Positions 2,611 through 33,296 of a DNA stretch of 33,296 bases are shown here, in pieces. The position numbers and the translations under genes are program-made. The stretch comes from Deltaproteobacteria bacterium. Lineage in GTDB: Bacteria > Myxococcota > XYA12-FULL-58-9 > JABJBS01. Each line of letters begins with the position of its first letter. The first letter of the stretch is position 1. Below the pieces are notes generated by a model. It searched no databases. It worked only from the letters and a program-made list of their open reading frames with translations, and was not told where the DNA came from. Location of the stretch: contig JABJBS010000417.1 in the NCBI GenBank assembly GCA_018668695.1, positions 1 through 33,296 on the forward strand, read 5' to 3'.

Positions 2611-3156
2611 TTAAACTTCTGGCTGAGCGTAGCGTGTGGTGGGAAATCTCGCTGAGGATGAACGCTCCAAAACGATTGCACCGGTTCGAATGATGTCCAT
2701 GACGCCGAATTGCGCTTCAAGCTCCATCGTAATCACGTTGAGTTCGTTGCGTGTTCCAACCACTTGATAGGTAACACTCGTTGGACCTTCATCCACGCGC
2801 TGACCCATCAAAGAGGACATCATAACTGCCAATTCGCCCCGCTTATGCTCTGGGCAACTTAAGCGAATCACTGCCAATTCACTCTCAACCACGCACTCGG
2901 TTGGGTATTCTCGAGCATCAATAACATCTACCAGCTTCTTGAGCTGACCAATGATGAGCTGGAGGGTTCGAGTATCTCCCTTGGCAACAATCGTACAACG
3001 TGAAAGCTGCCCATCAGGATCTGGCGAGACGGACAAGCTATCAATGTTCCACCCGCGTCTCGAGAACACCAAGACCAAGCGATTCAACACACCGGCTTTG
3101 TTGGCAACATAAAGACTGATGGTATGAGTTCGCATCACTACTTCTAAATTACTCAT
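2611..3156 (-). CDS. ilvN: Acetolactate synthase small (regulatory) subunit
   Basis: Regulatory subunit of acetohydroxyacid synthase; it binds valine through its ACT domain and stimulates and feedback-controls the large subunit. The ACT domain begins at about residue 9 (HTISLYVANKAGVLNRLV) and covers about 75 residues, followed by the C-terminal ALS-small domain; the total of 181 residues is close to the family's 160-175 plus a short tail. The glycine-containing loop typical of valine-binding ACT domains (NKAGVLNR) is intact, so feedback inhibition is expected. It overlaps the large-subunit gene by one base (TGATG), the tightest coupling possible and usual for a fixed subunit ratio. It is the last gene of the ilv/leu operon. 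Confidence 0.96.
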   Translation of the reverse strand: MSNLEVVMRTHTISLYVANKAGVLNRLVLVFSRRGWNIDSLSVSPDPDGQLSRCTIVAKGDTRTLQLIIGQLKKLVDVIDAREYPTECVVESELAVIRLSCPEHKRGELAVMMSSLMGQRVDEGPTSVTYQVVGTRNELNVITMELEAQFGVMDIIRTGAIVLERSSSARFPTTRYAQPEV

Positions 3157-5003
3157 CAGGTACTCCCTTCCGGCTTCTCAAGTTTCCCTACAGGTGGTCC
3201 AAGCAGCATATCTTTCAAGGCTGCGCCGGCCGGAATCATAGGATAAACGTTATCACCGCTTGCAACTTCAGCATGGATAAGAACAGGGCCTTCGTTGTAA
3301 TCGAGTGCCTCCTTCATCTTTTCCTGAAGCTCTTCTGGGTTGGAAATACGGACCCCCTTCACACCGTAGCCTTCTGCAACTTTGCAAAAGTCAGGGTTAC
3401 CGTTCATTTCAACGCCCGAAAGGCGGTTGTCGTAGAACAGGTGTTGCCACTGGCGAACCATACCCAAATACTTATTATCCAGAATGACGATTTTGATAGG
3501 CAATTTATGAATCGCCGCTGTTGCCAGCTCAGGCAGAGTCATCTGAAACCCACCGTCACCGCAAATTGCAGCCACCGTAGCGCTTGGACGAGCGAGCTGT
3601 GCTCCAATGGCGGCCGGAAAACCGTAACCCATCGTGCCTGCCCCACCAGAAGATAACCAAGAATCGGCATAATCGCATTTGAAGAATTGAGCGGCCCACA
3701 TCTGGTGTTGCCCAACGTCAGTTGAAACAATTGCTTTACCTTGCGTCTGCTTGAAAAGCTCGTCAATGACCGCTTGGGCACGCAACGGCCCATCTGATTC
3801 ATATCCAAGCGGAAATGCTTCCTTCCAATCTTGAATCTGGTCTATCCACGCTTCAGTTTTACCCGGAACGCATTCTTCAAGCAGGCACTCCATCACAGCG
3901 CGAGCATCACCAACAACAGAAACATCCGGGACAACCATTTTGCCCATCTCTGCCGGATCGATGTCGATGTGAATCTTCACAGCGTCGGTGCAAAACTCGC
4001 TAAGCTTACCTACAATGCGGTCATCCCAGCGAGAACCAACACTCATGATGAGGTCACAATCTACAACCGCTTTATTCGCATAAGCGGTTCCATGCATTCC
4101 CAACATACCTACCGAGAGTTTGTGGGTTTCAGGAAAACAACCTTTTCCTAAAAGTGTGTTCGTAACCGGAACACCCATCTTTTCAACAAAAGACATGAGG
4201 ACCTTGCCTGCCCCTGAAATCATCGCACCATGACCAACAAGCAAAAGAGGCTTCTTAGCTTCTTGAAATGCTCGAGAGATTTTCTTTACACCATCCATGT
4301 CAACGTTTGACGATACTGTGTAACCAGGAAGGTCGAACTGCGGATTGTAGTTCGGGACGAACTTAGCTGACGAGATATCTTTCGGGACATCAATCAGTAC
4401 AACACCTGGGCGGCCCGACTCTGCGATATGAAATGCCTCTTTGATGATTCGCGGCATCTCGCGAACATCTTTCACAAGGTAACTGTGCTTCACGATAGGC
4501 ATCGTTACACCCATCACATCAGCTTCCTGAAATGCATCCAGTCCAAGGTTTGCAGTAATGGTTTGTCCTGTGATGACGACCATCGGTACTGAATCCATTT
4601 GAGCTGTAAGAATTCCGGATACCGTATTCGTTGCTCCCGGTCCGGAAGTAACCAAAACAACACCAGCTTTACCCGTCACACGTGCATAGCCATCGGCCAT
4701 GTGTGTTCCGCCTTGCTCGTGGCGACATAAAACCAATTCAATTGGCGAATCGAGAATGGCATCAAAGATAGGAATGTTGGCACCACCTGGGTAACCAAAA
4801 ACCATAGGCACGCCATGTTGCTGAAAACATTCAATCAGAGCTTCAGCACCCGTGACTTCGTCTTCGTCAACCCAACCCGTTGCATCGGGTTCGTTGTAAA
4901 CCGAGACCTGCTCGGTTCGAAATTTTGTACTGGTGATTTGGTCATCATCAGTCTCTGAAGGCGGCGGCACCAATTCCAATCTGCGCGGCATTTGTGAATT
5001 CAT
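3156..5003 (-). CDS. ilvB: Acetolactate synthase large (catalytic) subunit
   Basis: ThDP-dependent enzyme that condenses two pyruvates to 2-acetolactate (valine and leucine) or pyruvate with 2-oxobutyrate to 2-aceto-2-hydroxybutyrate (isoleucine). Seen in the 615-residue product: the ThDP-activating glutamate in RHEQ (Glu96), the FAD-binding middle domain, and the ThDP motif GDGG (482-485) with its Asn about 28 residues on (DNKYLG). About 50 extra N-terminal residues precede the first ThDP domain, rich in acidic residues, a little longer than E. coli IlvI. I chose ATG 5003, which overlaps the leuD stop as ATGA with AGGATGG about eight bases upstream; an in-frame ATG at 5015 would overlap leuD by 16 bases and lacks a site at good spacing. 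Confidence 0.96.
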
Positions 5004-5608
5004 GATCTGGCCCATCCTGTATACGGGAGTTGTTCAAAAACTTGTTTCGTTTGATTTTCGCCATCTAGGAGCATTGCGAGCGGGTCCCATTCCCCAGCTA
5101 AAAATGCATCCTTGGCAGTTTGCGGTAAAGACATCGAGTACTTGGATTTCCCAATTTGAACCGTGCCCTCTTCCAACTGAATCACCACTCCGATTTCAGG
5201 ATCAGCTTCTACGGCCTTAGCAATTTCTTGCCGGTCTTCACGACTGACCGATACGCAAAGCATTCCAAGCGTAACAGAATTACCAAAAAATATCTCTGCA
5301 AAACTCTCGGCAATCACCGCTTTAAAACCTGCTCGAACCAAAGCTTGTGGTGCGTGCTCTCTAGAAGAACCACAACCGAAGTTGCTACCGCTAACCATCA
5401 CCGATGACCCAGTAAATTTCGTATCATTCAACGGGTGTGACTTGGCCTTACCCTCTGAATCAAATCGCTCATCATAAAAAACAGTCTCTCCGAGACCATC
5501 GAATGTGACGCAGCGAAGAAACCTGGCAGGAGTGATTCTGTCGGTATCAATGTCATCGCCCGGCACATGAACTGCTGAGCCTTTAACTTCTTTAATGACT
5601 TGTCCCAT
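5000..5608 (-). CDS. leuD: 3-isopropylmalate dehydratase small subunit
   Basis: Swivel-domain subunit that works with LeuC to isomerise 2-isopropylmalate to 3-isopropylmalate (leucine), and also citramalate to 3-methylmalate when a citramalate route is used. The 202-residue product has the substrate-binding signature [14 protein letters not shown] at 74-87 and the N-terminal [13 protein letters not shown] segment, matching the family's typical length. It starts one base after the leuC stop and ends in a four-base ATGA overlap with ilvB, so leuC-leuD-ilvB are coupled. Confidence 0.96.
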
Positions 5609-5609
5609 C

Positions 5610-7013
5610 TTAACCCTCCCCTCTCATCGAAAATACATCTCGTACATCTGCAACCTTACCAGCAATAGCGGAAGCTGCAACCGATGCGGGGCTCATCAAT
5701 ACGGTTCTTCCGGTTGTACTGCCCTGACGTCCTTTAAAATTCCGATTACTCGACGAGACACAGAGCTGATCACCCTCGAGTTTGTCCGGATTCATTGCCA
5801 AACACATCGAGCAGCCCGGTTTTCTCCATTCAAACCCCGCACCTACGATAATGTCGACAAGGCCTTCTTTTTCAGCCTCTTGAGCAATTAGGTGAGAACC
5901 TGGAACCACAAGTGCCTTGACCCGTTCGTGAACCTTATGGCCTTCGACCAGCCGAGCCACTTCACGAATATCGCTTAAGCGCCCATTGGTGCAGCTGCCG
6001 ATAAACGCAACATCCACCGGAGTTCCGGTAAGCGGGTTGCCATCTTTCAAAGCCATGTACTCCAGCGCCTCTTGGTGGGTGCTGTTATCCGGCAAAACTG
6101 GGATGGATTCCTGAATACCGATTGCTTGTCCTGGGTTGATTCCCCAGGTCACAGTAGGCGTAATCTCCTCACCGGCAAATGTAACTCGGTCGTCAAACTC
6201 AGCGTCTGGCCCGGAGGCCAAGCTGTCCCAATAGCTGCACGCCTTGTCCCAATCGTCTCCCGATGGCGAAAACTGACGTTCTTTAAGGTAGTCGTAGGTT
6301 TTTTGGTCTGGGTTACAGTAACCAACCCGTGCACCACCCTCGATGGCCATGTTGCAAACGGTCATACGCTCATCCATGCTCATCGAATCGATGACAGCGC
6401 CGCAAAACTCATAGGCATAACCAGCGCCGCCATTGACACCAAGCTCCCGGATAACATGTAAAATCACGTCCTTGGCGTAAACACCTGGGTTCAGTGAACC
6501 CGTGATTTCCACTCGGCGTACCTTCAAGGGCGACATCGCTAAAGTTTGGGTGGCCAACACATCTCTCACCGTGCTCGTACCAATACCAAAAGCGATGGAG
6601 CCAAATGCACCATGCGTTGAGGTGTGAGAATCACCGCAACAGATGGTCATTCCTGGCTGAGTCAGCCCCTGCTCTGGTCCCACGACATGAACGATACCTT
6701 GTTTACCGCTATCCATATCGAAGTATTCGATACCAAAGTCTTCGGTATTCTTTTGAAGCGCCACTATCATTTCTTCAGCAAGGCTATCCTTAAAAGGACG
6801 GGCCTGGTCGTGCGTGGGGATGATATGGTCAACCGTAGCAAACGTACGGTTTGGGTACTTCACGGGTAAGTTAAGCTCACGCAACATCCCAAAGGCCTGC
6901 GGACTTGTCACTTCATGAATGAGGTGGAGGCCTATAAAGAGCTGTGTACGACCATCACTCAGTGTTCGTACGGTATGGGCCTGCCAGACTTTCTCAAAAA
7001 GATTCTTTGTCAT
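5610..7013 (-). CDS. leuC: 3-isopropylmalate dehydratase large subunit
   Basis: Catalytic [4Fe-4S] subunit of isopropylmalate isomerase of the aconitase family. In the 467-residue product the three cluster cysteines are visible at Cys341 (GSCTNG), Cys401 and Cys404 (GCSMC), and the N-terminus [10 protein letters not shown] matches the usual start of LeuC. I chose ATG 7013 on that similarity; a GTG in frame at 7022 is an alternative and the ribosome site (AGGGAAG) does not decide between them. It sits about 15 bases after the malic enzyme stop. With LeuD it probably serves both the leucine and the citramalate-based isoleucine branch, because the operon encodes both first-step synthases. Confidence 0.96.
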
Positions 7014-7028
7014 GTTACTCACGCTTCC

Positions 7029-8846
7029 CTAGAACTTTCGTCCACCCTCATTCGCCAAACGTACCGGCAAATAATCCGGTCTCCATGTGCGGTCTTCAAC
7101 GTACTTCTCAATAGCCTCGTCTTGCACTTTATCGACAGTAGCCACACCGTCAACGAAAGCTCGGCGCATGACGGAAACCGCCACTGCTTTACTGGCATCC
7201 TTTAACCGGCTCAATTCAGGAAAAAGTCGTTCTTCTTCCCCGTAATGTAGCTCGGTAAATTCTGCCAAAGCGTATGCTGCTTCCCAAACCATATCGTCAC
7301 TGATGTAGGTTGCGCCGCTTAGAACAGTTCCCACTCCAACGCCGGGGAAAATAAATGCGTTATTTCCCTGATTCGCAAAATAGGTTTTCCCTGAAAGCTT
7401 AACATCGTCAAACGGACTGCCTGTCGCCACCAAAGCTTGTCCATCTGTCCAGCTAAGGAAGTCTTCCGGAGTGCCTTCGCTCAGCATCGTCGGGTTTGAC
7501 AATGCAAACACGATAGGACGGGTTGTATTCTTTGAAACGGCATCCACCCATTCACGTGTGAATGACCCGGGCTGACCGCTGAGTCCCAAAAGGCCGGTAA
7601 CGCCTGCTTGCTCAATGGTTTCTAAAACCGTAGGACTACTTCCCTCAATGTCCCAATCAGCAAAGTCGGAAGCCTTGCGAGCGAATGGCTTTTTATACTC
7701 AACCAAGTCTCGGTCATCACGAAGTACGCCTCGTGAATCGTATACAAACAAACGCTGCATGGCTTCATCGTGAGTGAGGCCCTCTCGCTTAAGAGCCTCT
7801 CTGATAGCCCATGCAACCCCGATACCACCGGCTCCTGCACCGTAGACCAAGAACTTCTGGTCAGTGATTTTTTCGCCCTTGAGGCGGCAAGCCCGTAAAA
7901 CACCCGCAAGTGCCACAGCACCCGTTCCTTGGATGTCGTCGTTAAAGGATGCCACTTTATCACGGTAGCGATGCAACACATGGAACGCCGCTTCCTTGGA
8001 AAGGTCCTCCCACTGAATCACAACCCGTGGCATTTTCTTTACAACACCGCTTACAAATTGGTCGATGAAATCGATGTAACTATCACCATGCATTCGAGTC
8101 TGGCGCGCACCAACATAGAGTGGGTCATCCAGTAAATGTTGCGTATCGGTTCCAACATCAAGACACACCGGCATACTGTGAAAAGGACTAATGCCTCCGC
8201 CCACGGTGTAGAGTGCGAGCTTGCCTATCGAAATTGCTAAACCACCGTAGCCCTGATCGCCGATACCTAGAATTGCCGATGAATCGGTCGCCACGATAAG
8301 CCGCGTATCCGTCAACGGATAATCTTCAAGCATCTGGTCGATGGCATCAATGTTATCCGGCGAGACCGATAGGCCGCGAGGGTTTTCATAAAGCTTACTG
8401 AAGTTGGCCACAGCATCGCCAACTGTAGGCGTATAGATGACCGGCATCATCTCTTCGAGATGCTTAGCAACCAATGCGTAAAATAGAATTTCATGCCGCT
8501 CTTGTAGCCCGCGCAAAAACTGATAACGCGCCAATGGGTCTGCTTGACGGCAATAACCATTGTATGCCCGCTCAATCTGTTCTTCCTGCGTGCAAACCTG
8601 CGAAGGCAAAAGGCCCTCAAGCCCAAGACTTCGGCGTTCTTCACGTGTGAACGCTGTGCCCTTATTGGTTAATACCAAACGCAAGAGCGCGATACCCCGG
8701 ACAAAGCTAACCATATACGGTGAGCCATCTTCATCCTGGCAAATGTCGAAGTAAGTACATACTGGTTTCGGATCAGGAACAAGTTCCAGTGAGCGAAATT
8801 CAGTTTGACCGTCTTTAGGCTTCTTTACAGCTTTAGCACCCGTCAT
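7029..8846 (-). CDS. maeA: Malic enzyme (oxaloacetate-decarboxylating, NAD type)
   Basis: Oxidatively decarboxylates malate to pyruvate and CO2 with reduction of NAD(P). The 605-residue product is the long form (E. coli MaeA is 565). It shows the catalytic tyrosine region PVIYTPTVG (Tyr138), the RGLSVSPDNID segment, the metal-binding and signature region FNDDIQGTG (301-309), and a Rossmann motif GAGAGGIG (336-343). The cofactor is inferred as NAD from the family branch. An N-terminal hydrophilic tail of about 30 residues is extra. Its ATG comes one base after the leuB stop (TAATATG) and leuC follows within 20 bases, so it is embedded in the leucine operon rather than adjacent to it. Its product pyruvate is the substrate of both IlvB and CimA. 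Confidence 0.94.
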   Translation of the reverse strand: MTGAKAVKKPKDGQTEFRSLELVPDPKPVCTYFDICQDEDGSPYMVSFVRGIALLRLVLTNKGTAFTREERRSLGLEGLLPSQVCTQEEQIERAYNGYCRQADPLARYQFLRGLQERHEILFYALVAKHLEEMMPVIYTPTVGDAVANFSKLYENPRGLSVSPDNIDAIDQMLEDYPLTDTRLIVATDSSAILGIGDQGYGGLAISIGKLALYTVGGGISPFHSMPVCLDVGTDTQHLLDDPLYVGARQTRMHGDSYIDFIDQFVSGVVKKMPRVVIQWEDLSKEAAFHVLHRYRDKVASFNDDIQGTGAVALAGVLRACRLKGEKITDQKFLVYGAGAGGIGVAWAIREALKREGLTHDEAMQRLFVYDSRGVLRDDRDLVEYKKPFARKASDFADWDIEGSSPTVLETIEQAGVTGLLGLSGQPGSFTREWVDAVSKNTTRPIVFALSNPTMLSEGTPEDFLSWTDGQALVATGSPFDDVKLSGKTYFANQGNNAFIFPGVGVGTVLSGATYISDDMVWEAAYALAEFTELHYGEEERLFPELSRLKDASKAVAVSVMRRAFVDGVATVDKVQDEAIEKYVEDRTWRPDYLPVRLANEGGRKF

Positions 8847-8847
8847 A

Positions 8848-9957
8848 TTAAGCGCATTCCTTTCGAGAACCCGTCAGTGTCTTTACTTGATGACCAACAG
8901 CTGCACCCATTTCTTCGGTGCCGACCATGCGTTCGTGCTCTTCGCCCGATGCGATATCACCTGTGCGAAGACCTTGCGCTAAAACCGCTTCAACCGCATC
9001 GTCGACCAAGCATCCAAGATCGGGACGTTGTGCCGAATGCGTTAGAAGCATTGAGACAGAAAGAATCGTAGCCAAAGGGTTTGCCTTACCCTGACCGGCA
9101 ATATCCGGCGCCGTCCCATGAACGGGCTCGTAGATACCGGGGCCATCACCCAATGAAGCTGAGGGTAGCATTCCAAGAGAACCTGTCAGTGCGGCTGATG
9201 CATCACTCAAAATATCCCCAAAGATATTACCCGTCACCAAGACATCGAATTGAGCTGGATTGGTCACCATTTGCATCGCACAGTTATCAACATACATGTG
9301 CGAGAGCTCTACCTCAGGATACTCCTTGGACAGATCTGTCATGACCTCACGCCATAACCTCTGCACTTCGAGAACATTCGCTTTATCTACGCTCAAGAGC
9401 TTTTTCTCTCGGCCCATAGCGGTCTCAAATGCCACACGACCAATTCGGCGAATTTCGTCTTCGTGGTAAATCATCGTGTTGCTACCCACACGGCCTGTGT
9501 CGGTTTCAACAATGCCGCGCGGCTCACCAAAGTAGATACCGCCAATCAGTTCGCGAACGGTTACAAAGTCCACATCCGATGTAAGGTCTGGTCGAAGCGG
9601 GCTCGCACCGCAAAGGCTGTCAAAAAAACGAGCCGGTCGCAGATTTGCATAGACCTCTAAAGAACCCCGCAAACTCAATAGGCCACGCTCTGGTCGCATG
9701 GCGCCAGTGAGTTCATCCCACTTCGGTCCGCCCACGGCACCTAGCAAAACAGCATCGCTTGCCTTTACCAGCCGCTCACATGAGTCAGGAAATGGATTGT
9801 TGGAGGAATCTATCGCAGCACCGCCAAAGTCAGCATGTTCAGTCTCGAAGGAAAAGTCGGTTTCTTGCGCCAACACATCCAGGACTTTTAAGGCCTCTTG
9901 AGTAACCTCCGGACCAATGCCATCACCGCTTAATACTGCCAGCTTTAGAGTGCTCAT
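8848..9957 (-). CDS. leuB: 3-isopropylmalate dehydrogenase
   Basis: NAD-dependent oxidative decarboxylase making 4-methyl-2-oxopentanoate (leucine precursor); in organisms with citramalate synthase it also converts 3-methylmalate to 2-oxobutyrate. The 369-residue product has the N-terminal SGDGIGPEV motif, the substrate arginine region LRPARFFD, and the signature GNIFGDILSDASAALTGSLG containing the metal-binding aspartates, then EPVHGTAPDIAG for NAD binding. ATG 9957 (MSTLKLAVL) lies one base after the leuA stop; the longer open reading from 10029 would overlap leuA by 71 bases and adds residues not seen in LeuB. Length equals the family norm (about 360). Confidence 0.96.
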   Translation of the reverse strand: MSTLKLAVLSGDGIGPEVTQEALKVLDVLAQETDFSFETEHADFGGAAIDSSNNPFPDSCERLVKASDAVLLGAVGGPKWDELTGAMRPERGLLSLRGSLEVYANLRPARFFDSLCGASPLRPDLTSDVDFVTVRELIGGIYFGEPRGIVETDTGRVGSNTMIYHEDEIRRIGRVAFETAMGREKKLLSVDKANVLEVQRLWREVMTDLSKEYPEVELSHMYVDNCAMQMVTNPAQFDVLVTGNIFGDILSDASAALTGSLGMLPSASLGDGPGIYEPVHGTAPDIAGQGKANPLATILSVSMLLTHSAQRPDLGCLVDDAVEAVLAQGLRTGDIASGEEHERMVGTEEMGAAVGHQVKTLTGSRKECA

Positions 9958-9958
9958 T

Positions 9959-11521
9959 TCAGGAAGCCTCTCTCTTCTTATCAGCTGCTTGAGCTGAGAC
10001 TTTAGGGTTATCACGGCGCCACGCTGCACGGTTTAAAGCGCTTACGAAAGCCTCTGCACTTGCAACAACAACATCCGTGTCGGTGCTCTGACCTTGAAAA
10101 TGCTCACCATCAGAATCGATCCGAACATTTACACGACCTTGGGCATCAGACCCGCCTGTGATGGCTGAGATCGAATAATCAAGTAAGGTCACGTTATCGA
10201 GGCCAGCACAGCGCTTCACCGCTTCAAGCGCAGCATTCACCGGACCATCGCCTGAAGAGTGTGCACTCACCTCAGCGCCATTTACATTCATCGTCACGGT
10301 TGCGCCGGGCTCCACTGAACTTCCGCCGTTAAATTCCACCGAAGTCAGCTCATAATATGCCTCGACCGCTGTGGCTGAAGAGCCTACCAACGTGTGCAAA
10401 TCTTCGTCGTAAATATTCTTTTTACGATCAGCCAAATCTTTGAAGTCTTTAAAGACAACTTTAAGCTCAGCGTCTGTAAGGCGGTAACCCAAAGTCTCCA
10501 GACGGTCGCGTAAAGCGTGACGCCCTGAATGCTTTCCAAGAACCAAGTTAGACTCGCTGATGCCAACGCTCTCTGGTGTCATGATTTCATAGGTACTTCG
10601 CTCTTCGAGAACACCATGCTGATGGATTCCGGCCTCATGAGCGAAAGCATTTCTACCAACAATCGCTTTATTAGGCTGGACCACCATACCAGTGACTTCA
10701 CTTACCAGGCGGCTAACACTGGTTAGCTGAGTGGCGTCGACCCGCGTTTGAACGTTCATGATGTCCGCACGTGTTCGAAGACTCATTACAATCTCTTCGA
10801 GCGCAGCATTACCAGCACGCTCACCCAGGCCATTGATACAACACTCAACTTGGCGAGCACCTGCCTTGACCGCTGCCAAGGAATTGGCAACCGCTAGACC
10901 AAGGTCGTTGTGACAATGCGCTGAAACAATCGCTTCTGTTCCCTCGGTAACTTTAACGACCTCACCAATCATGTGCTGAAACTCTTCAGGCATGGTGTAC
11001 CCAACCGTGTCCGGTACATTAAGAACAGTTGCCCCATTCTCAATCGCACACGCCATGGCTTCCTTTAGAAAACCGATGTCTGTTCGTGACGCATCCTCTG
11101 CAGAGAACTCTACCCGCTCACAAAGCGAGCGGCACATTCCCACGCCATACTTAATTTGTTCCAAGACCTCTTCACGGGTCATCTTCAACTTGTATTGCAA
11201 GTGAATATCGCTGGTTGCGATAAAAACATGAAAACGTGGCTTCTTAGCAAACTTTAAGGCTTCTTCCGCGGCGCGGATATCATTTTCCCGCGTTCGACAA
11301 AGGCCCGCAATCTCGGCGTTCACCGCAATTTGACTCAGCGCCTGCACCGAGCGGATTTCACCCGGACTTGCCGCTGGAAAACCTGCTTCAATAACATCGA
11401 CTCCCATTGCGTCTAACTTACGCGCAATACGGATTTTTTCATCCTGAGTCATTGTAGCGCCTGGTGACTGCTCACCGTCGCGCAATGTAGTATCGAAAAT
11501 TCGTACGAAATCTTGTGACAT
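9959..11521 (-). CDS. leuA: 2-isopropylmalate synthase
   Basis: Condenses acetyl-CoA with 2-oxoisovalerate to 2-isopropylmalate, the committed step of leucine synthesis. The 520-residue product has the DRE-TIM signature FDTTLRDGEQS (9-19), the metal-binding HCHNDLGLAVANS about residue 200, NGLGERAGNAALEE, and a C-terminal LeuA dimer/regulatory domain from about residue 390 that binds leucine for feedback inhibition in the family. AAGGGA lies eight bases before ATG 11521. It is 22 bases downstream of cimA. The two paralogues in tandem differ in their substrate regions; this one is the LeuA type. Confidence 0.96.
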   Translation of the reverse strand: MSQDFVRIFDTTLRDGEQSPGATMTQDEKIRIARKLDAMGVDVIEAGFPAASPGEIRSVQALSQIAVNAEIAGLCRTRENDIRAAEEALKFAKKPRFHVFIATSDIHLQYKLKMTREEVLEQIKYGVGMCRSLCERVEFSAEDASRTDIGFLKEAMACAIENGATVLNVPDTVGYTMPEEFQHMIGEVVKVTEGTEAIVSAHCHNDLGLAVANSLAAVKAGARQVECCINGLGERAGNAALEEIVMSLRTRADIMNVQTRVDATQLTSVSRLVSEVTGMVVQPNKAIVGRNAFAHEAGIHQHGVLEERSTYEIMTPESVGISESNLVLGKHSGRHALRDRLETLGYRLTDAELKVVFKDFKDLADRKKNIYDEDLHTLVGSSATAVEAYYELTSVEFNGGSSVEPGATVTMNVNGAEVSAHSSGDGPVNAALEAVKRCAGLDNVTLLDYSISAITGGSDAQGRVNVRIDSDGEHFQGQSTDTDVVVASAEAFVSALNRAAWRRDNPKVSAQAADKKREAS

Positions 11522-11543: not shown

Positions 11544-13151
11544 TCAAGCTGTCGCTTTGACGCGCTGAACCTGAGCCCCCACTTTCATCAATTTATATTC
11601 AAAGGTATCCACAATAGCTTGACGGCTGGCTTCGACCACACTGGTGCTAACACCAACCGTACCCCAGACATCTCGTCCATCCGTCGCGCGAATCAAAACG
11701 CGAACAGTCGAGGCGAAACCCATTCCCTTGTTTAAAATACGAACTTTGTAATCAGTAAGTTTAACGTTGGCCAGTTCCGGATAACGTTTACCCAGCGGCT
11801 CTCTCAGCGCAGTTGCAATTGCGTGAACCGGACCGTTTCCTTCTGCCTCAGACTCATAGGCCTGTGAACCAATGGTCACTTTTAAGCTCGCTCGTGAACT
11901 ACCAGGAGTTTGTTCCTCAGTCGTTAAAGCGTCCATCGCCGTCGTAACCTGCGTTTCACCCAGCTCGAAATAACGCTCTCGTGTTCCTCGGGCTTCATGC
12001 ATCAATAAAAGCAGCGATGCTTCAGCACCCTCGAACTGATACCCGTCGTATTCCAGACTTTTAATCCGCTCTAAAACCTTTCGTGTCCAAGGGTCGTTAG
12101 GGTCAAGCTCTACGCCGAACTCACGCGCCTTAAAAATGATTGTAGAAAAGCCAGATAAATCTGAGGCTAAAATACGTCTGCGGTTACCAACATCGTGAGG
12201 CTGAACGTGCTCATAAGTTCCAGGGTCTTTCATCACTGCGTTGATGTGAACACCGCCCTTGTGTGAGAAAGCCCGGCGCCCAACATAAGGCTGTTGAGGC
12301 TGAGGGATGTAGTTGGTGATCTCGTCAACCGTGCGTGCTAGCTGGGTAAGCCGTGGCATTCGGCTCTCAGGAACACACCCGTAACCCATCTTGAGTTGCA
12401 AATTCGGAATCACGGTAACCAAATCAGCGTTACCACAACGTTCACCGTAGCCGTTCACGGTTCCTTGAACCATGGTCGCGCCAGACTGGACAGCAGCCAG
12501 GGAGTTTGCAACGGCAAGCCCTGCATCGTTGTGGGTATGAATACCAACCTTAGCTTCGAATCGCTCCGAAACGAGGCTGGTCAACCGAGAGATCTCCGCC
12601 GGCAGGCTTCCGCCGTTGGTATCACAAAGCACTAAAAAATCTGCGCCGCCCTGACTCGCGGCCTCGAGGACCTTCATCACATACTCTTCGTCTTCAGCCG
12701 CACCATCGAAAAAATGCTCGGCATCAAAGATGACTTCATCAACACGTGACTTTAAGTAACGAACGGTGTCGTGTACCAATTCAAGATTAACCTCAGGTTC
12801 CACACCCAATGCGGTGGTAGCCTGATACTTAGACGATTTACCAAAGATAGTGACGACAGGAGTATCCGCTTTAACCAAAGCCTGCACGCTGCTGTCTTCG
12901 TCACAAGTCAGCGTTGCTCGCCGAGTTGCGCCAAATGCAGCAATCCGTGCATGGCTCAGGTTAAGCGAACGAACTTCCTTGAAGAAAGCCTCATCACGCG
13001 GGTTAGAACCTGGCCAGCCACCCTCGATATAGGTAATCCCAAAATCGTCGAGTAACTCGGTAAGCATTAGCTTCTCAGGAACGGATACCTGAAAATCTTC
13101 TGACTGTGTTCCATCCCGCAATGTGGTGTCGTAAACGTATACTTTCTTCAT
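11544..13151 (-). CDS. cimA: (R)-citramalate synthase
   Basis: Condenses acetyl-CoA with pyruvate to (R)-citramalate, opening a threonine-independent route to 2-oxobutyrate and isoleucine that then uses LeuCD and LeuB. The 535-residue product belongs to the DRE-TIM metallolyases: DTTLRDGTQSED at 8-19, HTHNDAGLAVANS, NGYGERCGNADL, and a C-terminal regulatory domain. The GTQSEDFQVSVPEK and YIEGGWPGSNPRD segments are characteristic of the Geobacter-type CimA family rather than LeuA or homocitrate synthase. ATG 13151 follows GAGGGATCAC at good spacing; the upstream extension to 13205 is not supported. The call as CimA rather than a second LeuA rests on these segments and on the tandem leuA. Confidence 0.9.
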   Translation of the reverse strand: MKKVYVYDTTLRDGTQSEDFQVSVPEKLMLTELLDDFGITYIEGGWPGSNPRDEAFFKEVRSLNLSHARIAAFGATRRATLTCDEDSSVQALVKADTPVVTIFGKSSKYQATTALGVEPEVNLELVHDTVRYLKSRVDEVIFDAEHFFDGAAEDEEYVMKVLEAASQGGADFLVLCDTNGGSLPAEISRLTSLVSERFEAKVGIHTHNDAGLAVANSLAAVQSGATMVQGTVNGYGERCGNADLVTVIPNLQLKMGYGCVPESRMPRLTQLARTVDEITNYIPQPQQPYVGRRAFSHKGGVHINAVMKDPGTYEHVQPHDVGNRRRILASDLSGFSTIIFKAREFGVELDPNDPWTRKVLERIKSLEYDGYQFEGAEASLLLLMHEARGTRERYFELGETQVTTAMDALTTEEQTPGSSRASLKVTIGSQAYESEAEGNGPVHAIATALREPLGKRYPELANVKLTDYKVRILNKGMGFASTVRVLIRATDGRDVWGTVGVSTSVVEASRQAIVDTFEYKLMKVGAQVQRVKATA

Positions 13152-13205
13152 GTGATCCCTCGGCTGAGTCCTGGAAAGGACGCCGCCCCCCATCTTTAAT
13201 CTCAA

Positions 13206-14192
13206 TTAGTTCTTGCGCTTAAACAGTGCACGTACTTGACGGCCAACCACTTCAATCGGGTGCTTGCTCTCTTCTTCACGAAGGCGATTAAGCTCTGGCA
13301 TGCCTGACTCATATTCAGCCATCCAGTTCTTCGCGAATGTACCGTCTTGAACTTCTGTAAGAGCGCTCTTCATCGCTTTACGTGTGTCGTCTGTTACAAT
13401 CTTTGGTCCAACCATACGGCCACCGTATTCAGCGGTATTCGAGACAACGTCCCACATACGCTCCAGGCCTCCTTCATAAATCAGGTCTACAATGAGTTTC
13501 ATTTCGTGCAAGCACTCAAAGTAAGCCATCTCTGGTGGATAACCTGCCTCAACCAACGTCTCAAAACCGGCCTTAATAAGCTCCGCTGTGCCTCCGCAAA
13601 GAACAGCCTGCTCACCGAAAAGGTCTTCATAGGTCTCATCTGCAAATGTACATTCAAGTACACCTGAACGTGTGCAACCCAGTGCATGTGCCAACGCCAT
13701 TGCCTTGTCTCGTGCTTTACCCGAGGCATCTTGCTCAACAGCCACGAGGCCAGGAACACCAAAACCTTCGAGGTATGCTTTACGCTCTTCTGTACCTGGT
13801 GCTTTAGGGGCAACCAAAATGCAGTCTACGTCTTCTGGTGGAGTGACATATCCAAAAAGAACATTGAAACCATGCGAGAACGAAAGCGTCTTGCCTGCAG
13901 TAACGTGGCGGGCAATGTACTTTTGATAAACTTTGCTCTGAACCTCATCAGGGATCAGAATGTGGATGACCTCAGCAGCTTTGGCCGCCTCTTCGATGGT
14001 AGCAACCGGCAGACCATCTTCTTGTGCCAATTTCCATGAAGCTCCATCTTCGCGAACACCAACAGTTACATTGAGGCCTGAGTCTTTGAAACACTGAGCC
14101 TGTGCGCGCCCTTGAGCACCATAGCCAATTACTGCGATCGGCGTATCCTTAAGCGCGTCAATCGAAGTTTCATCTGCTGTTGTTACTTTCAT
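13206..14192 (-). CDS. ilvC: Ketol-acid reductoisomerase
   Basis: Mg- and NADPH-dependent enzyme converting acetolactate and acetohydroxybutyrate to dihydroxy acids. The 328-residue class I protein shows the Rossmann motif GYGAQGRAQA (23-32), the catalytic HGFN region, and the C-terminal knotted domain with the metal-binding residues Asp190, Glu194 (DLFGEQAVLCGG), Glu226 and Glu230. ATG 14192 (MKVTTADE) is preceded by AAGGAAAAGAAA; the longer open frame reaching 14240 would read through the U-tract of the attenuator and starts in a non-conserved tail, so I reject it. It is the first structural gene behind the attenuator and its expression is probably governed by it, together with the eight genes that follow. 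Confidence 0.96.
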   Translation of the reverse strand: MKVTTADETSIDALKDTPIAVIGYGAQGRAQAQCFKDSGLNVTVGVREDGASWKLAQEDGLPVATIEEAAKAAEVIHILIPDEVQSKVYQKYIARHVTAGKTLSFSHGFNVLFGYVTPPEDVDCILVAPKAPGTEERKAYLEGFGVPGLVAVEQDASGKARDKAMALAHALGCTRSGVLECTFADETYEDLFGEQAVLCGGTAELIKAGFETLVEAGYPPEMAYFECLHEMKLIVDLIYEGGLERMWDVVSNTAEYGGRMVGPKIVTDDTRKAMKSALTEVQDGTFAKNWMAEYESGMPELNRLREEESKHPIEVVGRQVRALFKRKN

Positions 14193-14221: not shown

Positions 14222-14263
14222 AAAAAAAAAGGCCGACCAACTCGGTTCTGAGTGGGTCGGCCT
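14222..14263 (-). terminator. Intrinsic terminator of the ilvC leader (attenuator)
   Basis: On the minus strand AGGCCGACC (14263-14255) pairs perfectly with GGTCGGCCT (14238-14230), extended by a second four-pair helix (CTCA/TGAG-type, 14253-14250 with 14243-14240) after one mismatch, with a hexaloop. It is followed directly by a run of nine T (14230-14222 as read on minus). This is a textbook Rho-independent terminator placed 30 bases before the ilvC start, so it would stop transcription before the operon unless an alternative fold forms. Confidence 0.92.
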
Positions 14264-14310
14264 ACGGGGTGATTCTTTTCGGTTAGTTACCTCAAAGCAC
14301 CTCGTAGGCC
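14259..14310 (-). promoter_or_regulatory. Antiterminator pairing of the ilvC attenuator
   Basis: The segment GGCCTACGAGGTG (14310-14298, minus strand, inside the end of the leader peptide gene) is complementary to CACCCCGTAGGCC (14271-14259) at 12 of 13 positions. The second segment includes the 5' half of the terminator stem, so antiterminator and terminator exclude each other. A third segment CCTCGGTAG (14341-14333) can pair with CTACGAGG (14307-14300) with one bulged G, giving the protector 1:2 stem. The Ile-Ile-Ile-Leu-Leu codons (14331-14317) lie in the loop between segments 1 and 2, where a stalled ribosome would mask segment 1 and free segment 2. Confidence 0.85.
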
Positions 14311-14451
14311 ACATCTGAGCAAAATAATAATGCTACCGAGGAGGCCTAGGAGATTGAGGCTGACGACAGTTCTGCGGACGACGAGACCAGAAACTCCACC
14401 GACTGCAGGGTGAACTGCGCTTCCGGTGTTATGTGCAAAATGAGATTGCAT
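14287..14451 (-). CDS. Branched-chain amino acid leader peptide (ilvL-like)
   Basis: A 54-residue reading frame between the promoter and the attenuator. Twenty of its residues are Val, Leu or Ile, clustered in VV (24-25), VV (29-30), LLGLL (34-38) and IIILL (41-45), and it ends CGLRGALR, similar in style to the end of the E. coli ilvGMEDA leader peptide. AAGAGG lies just before ATG 14451 at short spacing. The stop at 14287 places a terminating ribosome over antiterminator segment 2, which allows the terminator to form when charged tRNAs are plentiful. No enzymatic role is expected; translation itself is the sensor. The exact start is less certain than the stop. Confidence 0.85.
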   Translation of the reverse strand: MQSHFAHNTGSAVHPAVGGVSGLVVRRTVVSLNLLGLLGSIIILLRCGLRGALR

Positions 14452-14500
14452 GAGCCTCTTATCCGTTGTCTGTCTGCAGGTCTTTCTGCGACTTAGAGGA

Positions 14501-14529
14501 AGCCTAAGCCGCGATTTTTCCACGGTCAA
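14501..14529 (-). promoter_or_regulatory. Promoter of the ilvC leader and operon
   Basis: Minus strand TTGACC (14529-14524), 17-base spacer, TAGGCT (14506-14501). Transcription would start near 14494, giving about 43 bases before the leader peptide ATG. Five of six -35 bases and three to four -10 bases match the sigma-70 consensus. Confidence 0.75.
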
Positions 14530-14657: not shown

Positions 14658-16328
14658 TTATCGACCTTTGCCAGAATAAAGCGAAGGAAAGCCGGTAACA
14701 GCCCCTTCTGACGCGGATGCCACGGTATGGATGTACTTTGCCATGGCGCCCTGGTGGTAGCGAGGCTCAGGTGCAGTCCACTCTTGTTCCCGTTCACTGA
14801 GATCGGCCAAGACGTCCAACGTACGTTTTTCAACGTCGATTCGGATTGTGTCGCCCTCTCGCACATGCGCGATGGGGCCGCCCACAGCAGCCTCCGGCGA
14901 TACGTGGCCAATCACAAAGCCGTGACTCGCACCGCTGAATCGGCCATCCGTCAATAGAGCCACATCACCAAGAATTCCGTGGCCCGCGAGAGCGGCAGTT
15001 ACGGCAAGCATTTCTCGCATACCCGGGCCGCCCTTGGGGCCCTCATAGCGAATCACGATGACATCCCCAGCTTTAATATCGCCGGACTGAACTGCCTCAA
15101 ACGCCAACTCTTCCTTATCGAAAACTCGTGCCGGCCCCTCGTGAAGTGCTCTTTCGGAACCACAAAGTTTAATAACGCAGCCCTCTGGTGCAAGGCTGCC
15201 TCGGAGAATAGCCAAACCACCACGTGGTTTCACCGGTTCTTGAACCGGCATCAAGACTTCCTGGCCGGGATTTTCATGCGCTGACTCAGCCTCCGCGCTT
15301 AACGATAAACCCGTGACCGTCTGTTCGTCAGTCATCAAGCCGGCGTCTAGAAGTCTCTTACAGACCAAGCGCACGCCCCCAGCCGCTTCCATATCTGGTG
15401 CGGTGAAACGACCCGTTGGCTTCAAGTCAGCGATGATTGGCGTTTTCGCCATCACTTCATCAATCACGTCGATGGCAAACTCAATTTCAAGCTCACGCGC
15501 AATCGCCAATAAGTGGAGTACAGAGTTGGTTGAGCCACCCGTGGCGGCTGTTGCAGCAATAGCATTGCGAAGAGACTGCTCTGTAATGATATCGCGTGGA
15601 CGACGATTGTGCTTATGAGCATCCATTACCAAGCGACCCACGTCGTAGGCCACCTGCTCTTTTCGGGGATCTACAGCCGGGACGTCATTGGCGCCCATCG
15701 GTGAAATTCCCATGGCCGTAAGCGCTGTTGCCATGGTGTTGGCGGTAAATTGACCACCACATGCACCGGCTCCAGGACACGCCTTCGACTCTAGGATTCG
15801 GAGTTCACCTTCAGTGATGCTTCCTGCAGCACAAGCACCGACTGCCTCAAACACATCTTGAATCGTCACATCAATTTCTTTGTGGCGCCCAGGCATAATC
15901 GAACCACCGTAGAGTGCTACGGATGGCAGGTTAAGCCTTGCTAAACCCATCACAACACCAGGAATCGTTTTATCGCAGCCACTCAAACCGACGACAGCGT
16001 CAAACATATGACCCCGCACGGCAAGCTCTAAGGAATCCGCAACCACTTCACGGCTCATCAAAGAGGCTTTCATGCCTTCTGTGCCCATACTGATACCATC
16101 AGAGACCACAATCGTGTTGAACTCGACAGGGGTACCACCAGCATCACGGATGCCGCGCTTCACGTGCTCCGCCAGCTTATTCAGGTGCATATTGCAGGGC
16201 GTAACTTCGGTCCAAGTATTGACCACCGCTACGAAGGGTTTTTCCAGGTCCTCGTCGGTGAGCCCGGTTGCTTTTAACATTGCACGAGCCGGCGCTCGCG
16301 ATACATCTGCTTTGTTATTGATACTCAT
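14658..16328 (-). CDS. ilvD: Dihydroxy-acid dehydratase
   Basis: Iron-sulfur enzyme that dehydrates 2,3-dihydroxy acids to 2-oxoisovalerate and 2-oxo-3-methylvalerate, the third common step of the valine/isoleucine pathway. The 556-residue product has Cys45 (EVTPCNMH), Cys118 (GCDKT) and Cys190 (GACGGQF), the three-cysteine arrangement of the family's cluster site, plus the [24 protein letters not shown]-terminal signature seen in part. Length is typical of IlvD. ATG 16328 shares its first base with the stop of the upstream GGDEF gene (TAATG), so translation is coupled. It lies upstream of the ilvC promoter on the same strand and is not under the ilvC attenuator. Confidence 0.96.
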
Positions 16329-31532: not shown

Positions 31533-31570
31533 CCGGGCTCTGCTGTGAATCAAATCGCAACAGAGCTCGG
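31533..31570 (+). other. Hairpin between promoter and TPP riboswitch
   Basis: CCGGGCTCTG (31533-31542) pairs with CAGAGCTCGG (31561-31570) over ten positions with one G-U pair and an 18-base loop. It is not part of the conserved TPP aptamer and has no T-run. Confidence 0.5.
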
Positions 31571-31573
31571 AAT

Positions 31574-33296
<1,723 letters not shown>

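Follow-up and report, generated by a model that had tools for sequence, protein, structure and literature searches.

A predicted leader-peptide attenuator upstream of an ilvC-headed operon in a Myxococcota genome

We analysed a 33,296-nt stretch of DNA from a member of the Myxococcota (the whole stretch is called the window; coordinates are positions in it, and features lie on the minus strand unless stated otherwise). In front of the gene series ilvC-cimA-leuA-leuB-malic enzyme-leuC-leuD-ilvB-ilvN, the window very probably carries a ribosome-mediated transcription attenuator that governs these genes by the charging of tRNA-Ile and tRNA-Leu. The mechanism is already known from attenuators of the ilv and leu type; what is new is the phylum, in which it seems to be undescribed.

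The leader reading frame and its hairpins

Direct translation gives a leader ORF (14287..14451) of 54 codons, running from an ATG at 14451 to a TAA at 14287 and encoding MQSHFAHNTGSAVHPAVGGVSGLVVRRTVVSLNLLGLLGSIIILLRCGLRGALR*. Twenty of its 54 residues are isoleucine, leucine or valine, in agreement with an earlier note on this DNA, whose coordinates all hold on direct reading. The putative control codons are V29, V30, L32, L34, L35, L37, L38, I41, I42, I43 and L44. The peptide contains a hydrophobic stretch, LNLLGLLGSIIILL, and its C-terminal end is RCGLRGALR. A ribosome-binding site read from the sequence, AAGAGG (14455..14460), was graded good and ends three bases 5' of the ATG; the frame is expected to be translated. 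Farther upstream, a weak candidate promoter (14501..14529) consists of TTGACC (14529-14524), a 17-nt spacer and TAGGCT (14506-14501). The motif pair that the earlier note had called sigma-70-like is present, but its likeness to the sigma-70 consensus is weak (8 of 12 positions) and a consensus promoter scan did not recover it. Transcription would start at this putative promoter, and transcripts from the upstream ilvD could also enter the leader.

Codon usage in the leader is biased. Eight of its 10 leucine codons are CTC or CTA, compared with 26% in neighbouring genes (p 5e-4), and GTC accounts for five of its seven valine codons (19% in neighbouring genes; p 4e-3). This is the kind of bias described for the attenuation leaders of E. 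coli, where selective charging of isoacceptors has been offered as the explanation (PMC1183508).

Segments 1 and 2 of the RNA both lie within the leader ORF and pair in a protector hairpin (1:2; 14289..14360; -29.7 kcal/mol) that is larger than a short stem; the control Ile codons sit towards its apex. Segment 2, the 5' strand of the antiterminator (GGCCUACGAGGUG; 14298..14310), is coded by the GLRG end of the leader. Segment 3, the 3' strand (CACCCCGUAGGCC; 14259..14271), contains a GGCC that doubles as the base of the terminator. When 14310-14298 is laid against 14271-14259, 12 of 13 positions form Watson-Crick pairs and a single A-C mismatch is left, bearing out the 13-base antiterminator described earlier. 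The intrinsic terminator hairpin (3:4; 14231..14262) reads GGCCGACC.CACTC...GAGT.GGTCGGCC from 14262 to 14231. It is followed, again as previously described, by a U-tract of nine T read from the sequence (14222..14230), and its energy of -21.9 kcal/mol drops to -9.5 without the GGCC base. The U-tract lies 30 nt from the ilvC start. Because the terminator stands so close to ilvC, transcription of this gene from any upstream promoter must cross it, and no space is left for a promoter after it.

Antiterminator and terminator are mutually exclusive, with an overlap of four bases only: the GGCC is exactly the part of the terminator that is common to the antiterminator. The computed energy of the antiterminator (2:3) is -26.3 kcal/mol, and its balance with protector and terminator is as expected of an attenuator. 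When the protector was left out, the full antiterminator (-38.8 kcal/mol) was 1.2 kcal/mol better than the full terminator (-37.6 kcal/mol). RNA folding, proposed in the earlier note as a check, gave z-scores of -3.87 (121 nt) and -4.40 (301 nt), the native sequence being more stable than all dinucleotide shuffles. The energy of the antiterminator duplex was reached by 260 of 20,000 synonymous recodings of the leader 3' end, a modest degree of significance (p about 0.013).

Ribosome position and predicted regulation

We modelled ribosome position by masking the RNA at each codon, with the downstream edge of the ribosome at 11, 13 or 15 nt, and computing the probability that the GGCC is paired in the antiterminator. 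The model is thermodynamic and leaves out polymerase speed and pausing. In the absence of a ribosome, the full-length RNA folds into protector plus terminator. The outer GGCC of the antiterminator was paired with a probability of 0.39-0.80 (mostly 0.69-0.80) for stalls at Ile41-43, 0.33-0.69 for stalls at Leu34-38 and about 0.05 for stalls at Val29/30. The value was 0 for a ribosome located from Arg46 to the stop or upstream of codon 27. On account of these pairing values, isoleucine is predicted to be sensed first, leucine next and valine little. Of the Val/Leu/Ile sensing suggested in the earlier note, the Ile and Leu parts are thus effective in the model but the Val part hardly is. The geometry proposed there, in which a stall masks segment 1 and a ribosome at the stop masks segment 2, agrees with the masking model. 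As the completed terminator is always favoured at equilibrium (P 1.00), antitermination would depend on timing.

In the mechanism that we propose, the operon would be expressed according to how much charged tRNA-Ile and tRNA-Leu is available, with a weak contribution of charged tRNA-Val. When amino acids are plentiful, the ribosome would reach the stop at 14287 and cover segment 2. This would leave segment 3 free, so that the terminator is completed beside nine U and transcription ends near 14222. A ribosome stalled at Leu34-38 or Ile41-44 would cover segment 1 and leave segment 2 free. The 2:3 pairing would then form first and keep the GGCC from closing the terminator against the U-tract, and the polymerase would continue into ilvC, derepressing the operon. 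If no ribosome is present, the 1:2 protector would sequester segment 2 and lead to termination.

The downstream operon and related leaders

The genes from ilvC to ilvN form a close-packed nine-gene series on the minus strand, and NCBIfam equivalog models confirmed the identities of all nine. The first structural gene is ilvC (ketol-acid reductoisomerase; 13206..14192; NF004017, TIGR00465). It is followed by cimA (citramalate synthase; 11544..13205; TIGR00977), leuA (2-isopropylmalate synthase; 9959..11521; NF002086, TIGR00973), leuB (3-isopropylmalate dehydrogenase; 8848..10029, with the start as listed, which may make it too long; TIGR00169) and a malic enzyme gene (oxaloacetate-decarboxylating malate dehydrogenase; 7029..8846; NF010052). 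Then come leuC (5610..7022; TIGR00170), leuD (5000..5608; TIGR00171), ilvB (acetolactate synthase large subunit; 3156..5015; TIGR00118) and, as the last gene, ilvN (acetolactate synthase small subunit; 2611..3156; TIGR00119). The upstream neighbour ilvD (14658..16328; TIGR00110) lies outside the attenuated unit. According to the equivalog matches, the operon genes belong to the pathways that make the sensed amino acids. CimA makes an isoleucine precursor from pyruvate; because this route starts from pyruvate, leuB, leuC and leuD serve isoleucine and leucine alike, and a single attenuator reading Ile and Leu codons therefore makes sense.

The gene order of this operon was not seen in any other locus compared. 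The malic enzyme gene, which interrupts the leu genes between leuB and leuC, possibly supplies pyruvate. The ilvC protein of the window is closest (59-65%) to genes of Woesearchaeota, Forterrea and Peregrinibacteria MAGs and shares at most 56% identity with ilvC of its own phylum; judged from sequence comparison, horizontal transfer or an odd lineage is probable. Elsewhere in the window, on the plus strand, there is a TPP riboswitch (31569-31673; Rfam RF00059, 72.1 bits).

No homologue of the leader DNA was found among 97 relatives; a 28-nt match in G002 was rejected, being of low complexity and at an unrelated gene. The leader peptide gave only chance-level matches (E at least 0.003) in 193 genomes. 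The readable operon heads of three order-mates (G001, G003 and G005) held no leader, nor did the regions upstream of ilvC in 80 genome-contig loci or in the phylum's 30 best loci. The ilvC-upstream scans had first suggested that the window's leader was unique. This idea was dropped after leaders appeared elsewhere in the phylum on scanning operon heads (ilvB, leuA) and weaker-ranked ilvC matches.

In 17 further genomes of the phylum, belonging to three families, operons that begin with ilvB, leuA or ilvC are preceded by the same architecture. Such leaders precede ilvC in G023 (L253) and G017 (L254), leuA in G084 and G090, and ilvB in G150, G147, G090, G084, G080, G145, G144, G143, G129, G142, G099, G096, G101, G105 and G106. 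The C-terminus of these leaders is G-x-GPP, mostly followed by F, and the terminator lies 50-70 nt after the leader stop (group loci L253, L254, L256, L263, L264, L273-L277, L279, L283, L285 and L293-L298). The codons of G-x-GPP (e.g. GGGUGCGGGCC) form the strand which pairs with the terminator's 5' arm (e.g. GGCCCCCGCACCC). A scan with strict criteria over 1.2 Mb of phylum DNA returned 16 matches (13 distinct), all at the heads of branched-chain amino acid operons. Operon-head scans found no leader in family f17, whose operon is mostly leuA-headed. The leuA gene is absent from many 9-13 Mb genomes of the phylum, and Myxococcus is auxotrophic for branched-chain amino acids.

Covariation was examined in an alignment of 18 sequences of the G-x-GPP group, the window's leader itself having no homologue to align. 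In the antiterminator, 90.9% of the cells were paired, versus at most 65.9% when the strands were slid. Covariation there consists of a U-A/G-C exchange (7 versus 8 sequences), which may reflect few events because it splits families. Terminator covariation in the phylum leaders is weak, since the 5' arm hardly varies and several rows of the alignment are shifted by one position. On the conservation in relatives that the earlier note had looked to, the outcome is divided but on balance favourable: the leader sequence is not conserved, but the architecture recurs at branched-chain operon heads and shows antiterminator covariation there. Like the G-x-GPP leaders, the window's leader codes an antiterminator strand with its last codons, has a terminator 50-70 nt beyond its stop and is followed by a branched-chain operon, and it shares ilvC as the first gene with L253 and L254. 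It differs in ending with RCGLRGALR in place of G-x-GPP, and its peptide identity to the group is only 17-31%; it appears to work alike and we do not count it as a member.

Ten stretches of the same genome around other amino acid genes held one further leader, MKQQFQHHLHHHGLWVG* (L191, G000:C144, 2692-2639, minus strand), with a terminator, GCCGACCATAGGGTCGGC. Its stop lies 142 nt before hisG (2497-1622 in L191), indicating that the lineage uses leader-peptide attenuation elsewhere too. This terminator has the base GCCGACC/GGTCGGC, similar to that of the ilv attenuator. No convincing Trp or Thr leader was found at the genome's trpE-like and homoserine dehydrogenase loci. About twenty relatives likewise have a His leader and a terminator in front of hisG (e.g. 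L205, L213-L229). We consider it moderately likely that branched-chain and histidine operons of this phylum are commonly under leader-peptide attenuators undescribed in Rfam and the papers searched, that their C-terminal peptide is dictated by the antiterminator RNA, and that the window's leader is an outlier which evolved or was replaced independently.

Two leaders were observed in MAGs of other affiliation. In a Neomarinimicrobiota MAG (L051, 1803-1946, plus strand), MTLIKISIKIAQLLRIMINMKAPRHILDIIIWIALIILLVDRGKGVF and a T9 terminator lie just 5' of ilvD in a cluster ordered ilvD-ilvB-ilvC-cimA-leuA-leuC-leuB, and its antiterminator pairing is strong (-20.5 versus -6.3 shuffled). A Clostridiales MAG (L080, 2068-2196, plus strand) has MLKAVPFIASIIIVLVLVIVLIIDSANKVLPKTGDCLTKRVK and a terminator before leuA-ilvB-ilvN-ilvC; no clear antiterminator was found for this leader.

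Alternative readings and known attenuators

With ilvD on the same strand and ending at 14658, the hairpin and its T9 might be an ordinary ilvD terminator and the Ile/Leu-rich frame an accident, a reading that the closest order-mates, devoid of any leader, would suit. We hold it to be very unlikely: the terminator stands about 400 nt past the ilvD stop and immediately before ilvC without promoter space between, and the antiterminator would be left unexplained. The combination is also rare by chance. A self-written scanner looked for an ORF that has I/L/V codons clustered towards its 3' end (at least nine I/L/V within 12 residues) and is followed by a terminator (dG <= -20). It returned a single case from 400 dinucleotide-shuffled copies of the window (13.3 Mb) and none from 5000 shuffled copies of the intergenic region. 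In the strict phylum scan, moreover, the arrangement recurs only at branched-chain operon heads.

Still less probable is control of the terminator by a riboswitch or T-box, that is, a metabolite- or tRNA-binding RNA, with the ORF incidental. A structured leader and terminator before a biosynthetic operon is the anatomy of these elements too, but no Rfam T-box or riboswitch matched the leader region at gathering or permissive thresholds. Furthermore, it is the coding region that is structured, with control codons where a ribosome would need to stall. (A mir-282 match, E 0.03, was discarded as meaningless, being far below its cut-off.) The hydrophobic stretch of the peptide might instead speak for a functional small protein of 54 residues beside a constitutive terminator that allows fixed read-through only. 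We give this just as little credence, as the peptide has no homologue in the genomes searched and its C-terminal residues follow the RNA pairing, like the G-x-GPP end in relatives.

Leader-peptide attenuation of the ilvC operon is thus the reading we prefer. It would extend the classical mechanism to a phylum for which we found no earlier report and place it before operons whose gene orders differ considerably (headed by ilvB, leuA or ilvC). It also offers a pattern for annotation: an I/L/V run, a short C-terminal motif coding an antiterminator strand, and a terminator 50-70 nt after the stop. In this citramalate-route organism, a shortage of isoleucine is predicted to be sensed more strongly than one of valine.

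Our literature search for leader peptides or attenuators in this phylum returned no report, which is weak evidence as most subscription journals lay outside it. In a 2010 survey, leader-peptide systems were said to have been shown, before its own Firmicutes finding, only in Proteobacteria and Actinobacteria (PMC2965389). A 2013 survey noted the absence of Ile/Val attenuators from Rfam and regarded gammaproteobacteria as the origin of amino acid attenuators (PMC3766115). None of the phylum's branched-chain and His leaders that we tested matched Rfam.

The attenuators of ilvGMEDA, ilvBN and leuABCD in E. coli and Salmonella share with the window's an Ile/Leu/Val-rich leader with biased codons, a set of protector, antiterminator and terminator, and a terminator before the first gene. 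By contrast, the leader in the window spans segments 1 and 2, has 54 codons (32 in E. coli ilvGMEDA), is matched by no covariance model of the Rfam amino acid leader families (Leu, Thr, His, Trp), and controls ilvC together with malic enzyme and cimA, the gene for a citramalate-type route to isoleucine. Corynebacterium ilvBNC is likewise a case of uORF-controlled ilv attenuation outside gammaproteobacteria with a three-hairpin model, differing in phylum, operon and leader (PMC10272879, PMC11857589). In Staphylococcus aureus, a Leu-rich attenuator peptide also controls a branched-chain operon, in another phylum, with another gene order and in combination with CodY (PMC5794164). The earlier note had described ilv attenuation as best known from gammaproteobacteria; leader-peptide attenuators are not confined there, occurring in Actinobacteria (PMC1262725), in Firmicutes (PMC5794164) and, as the leaders described here suggest, in this phylum as well.
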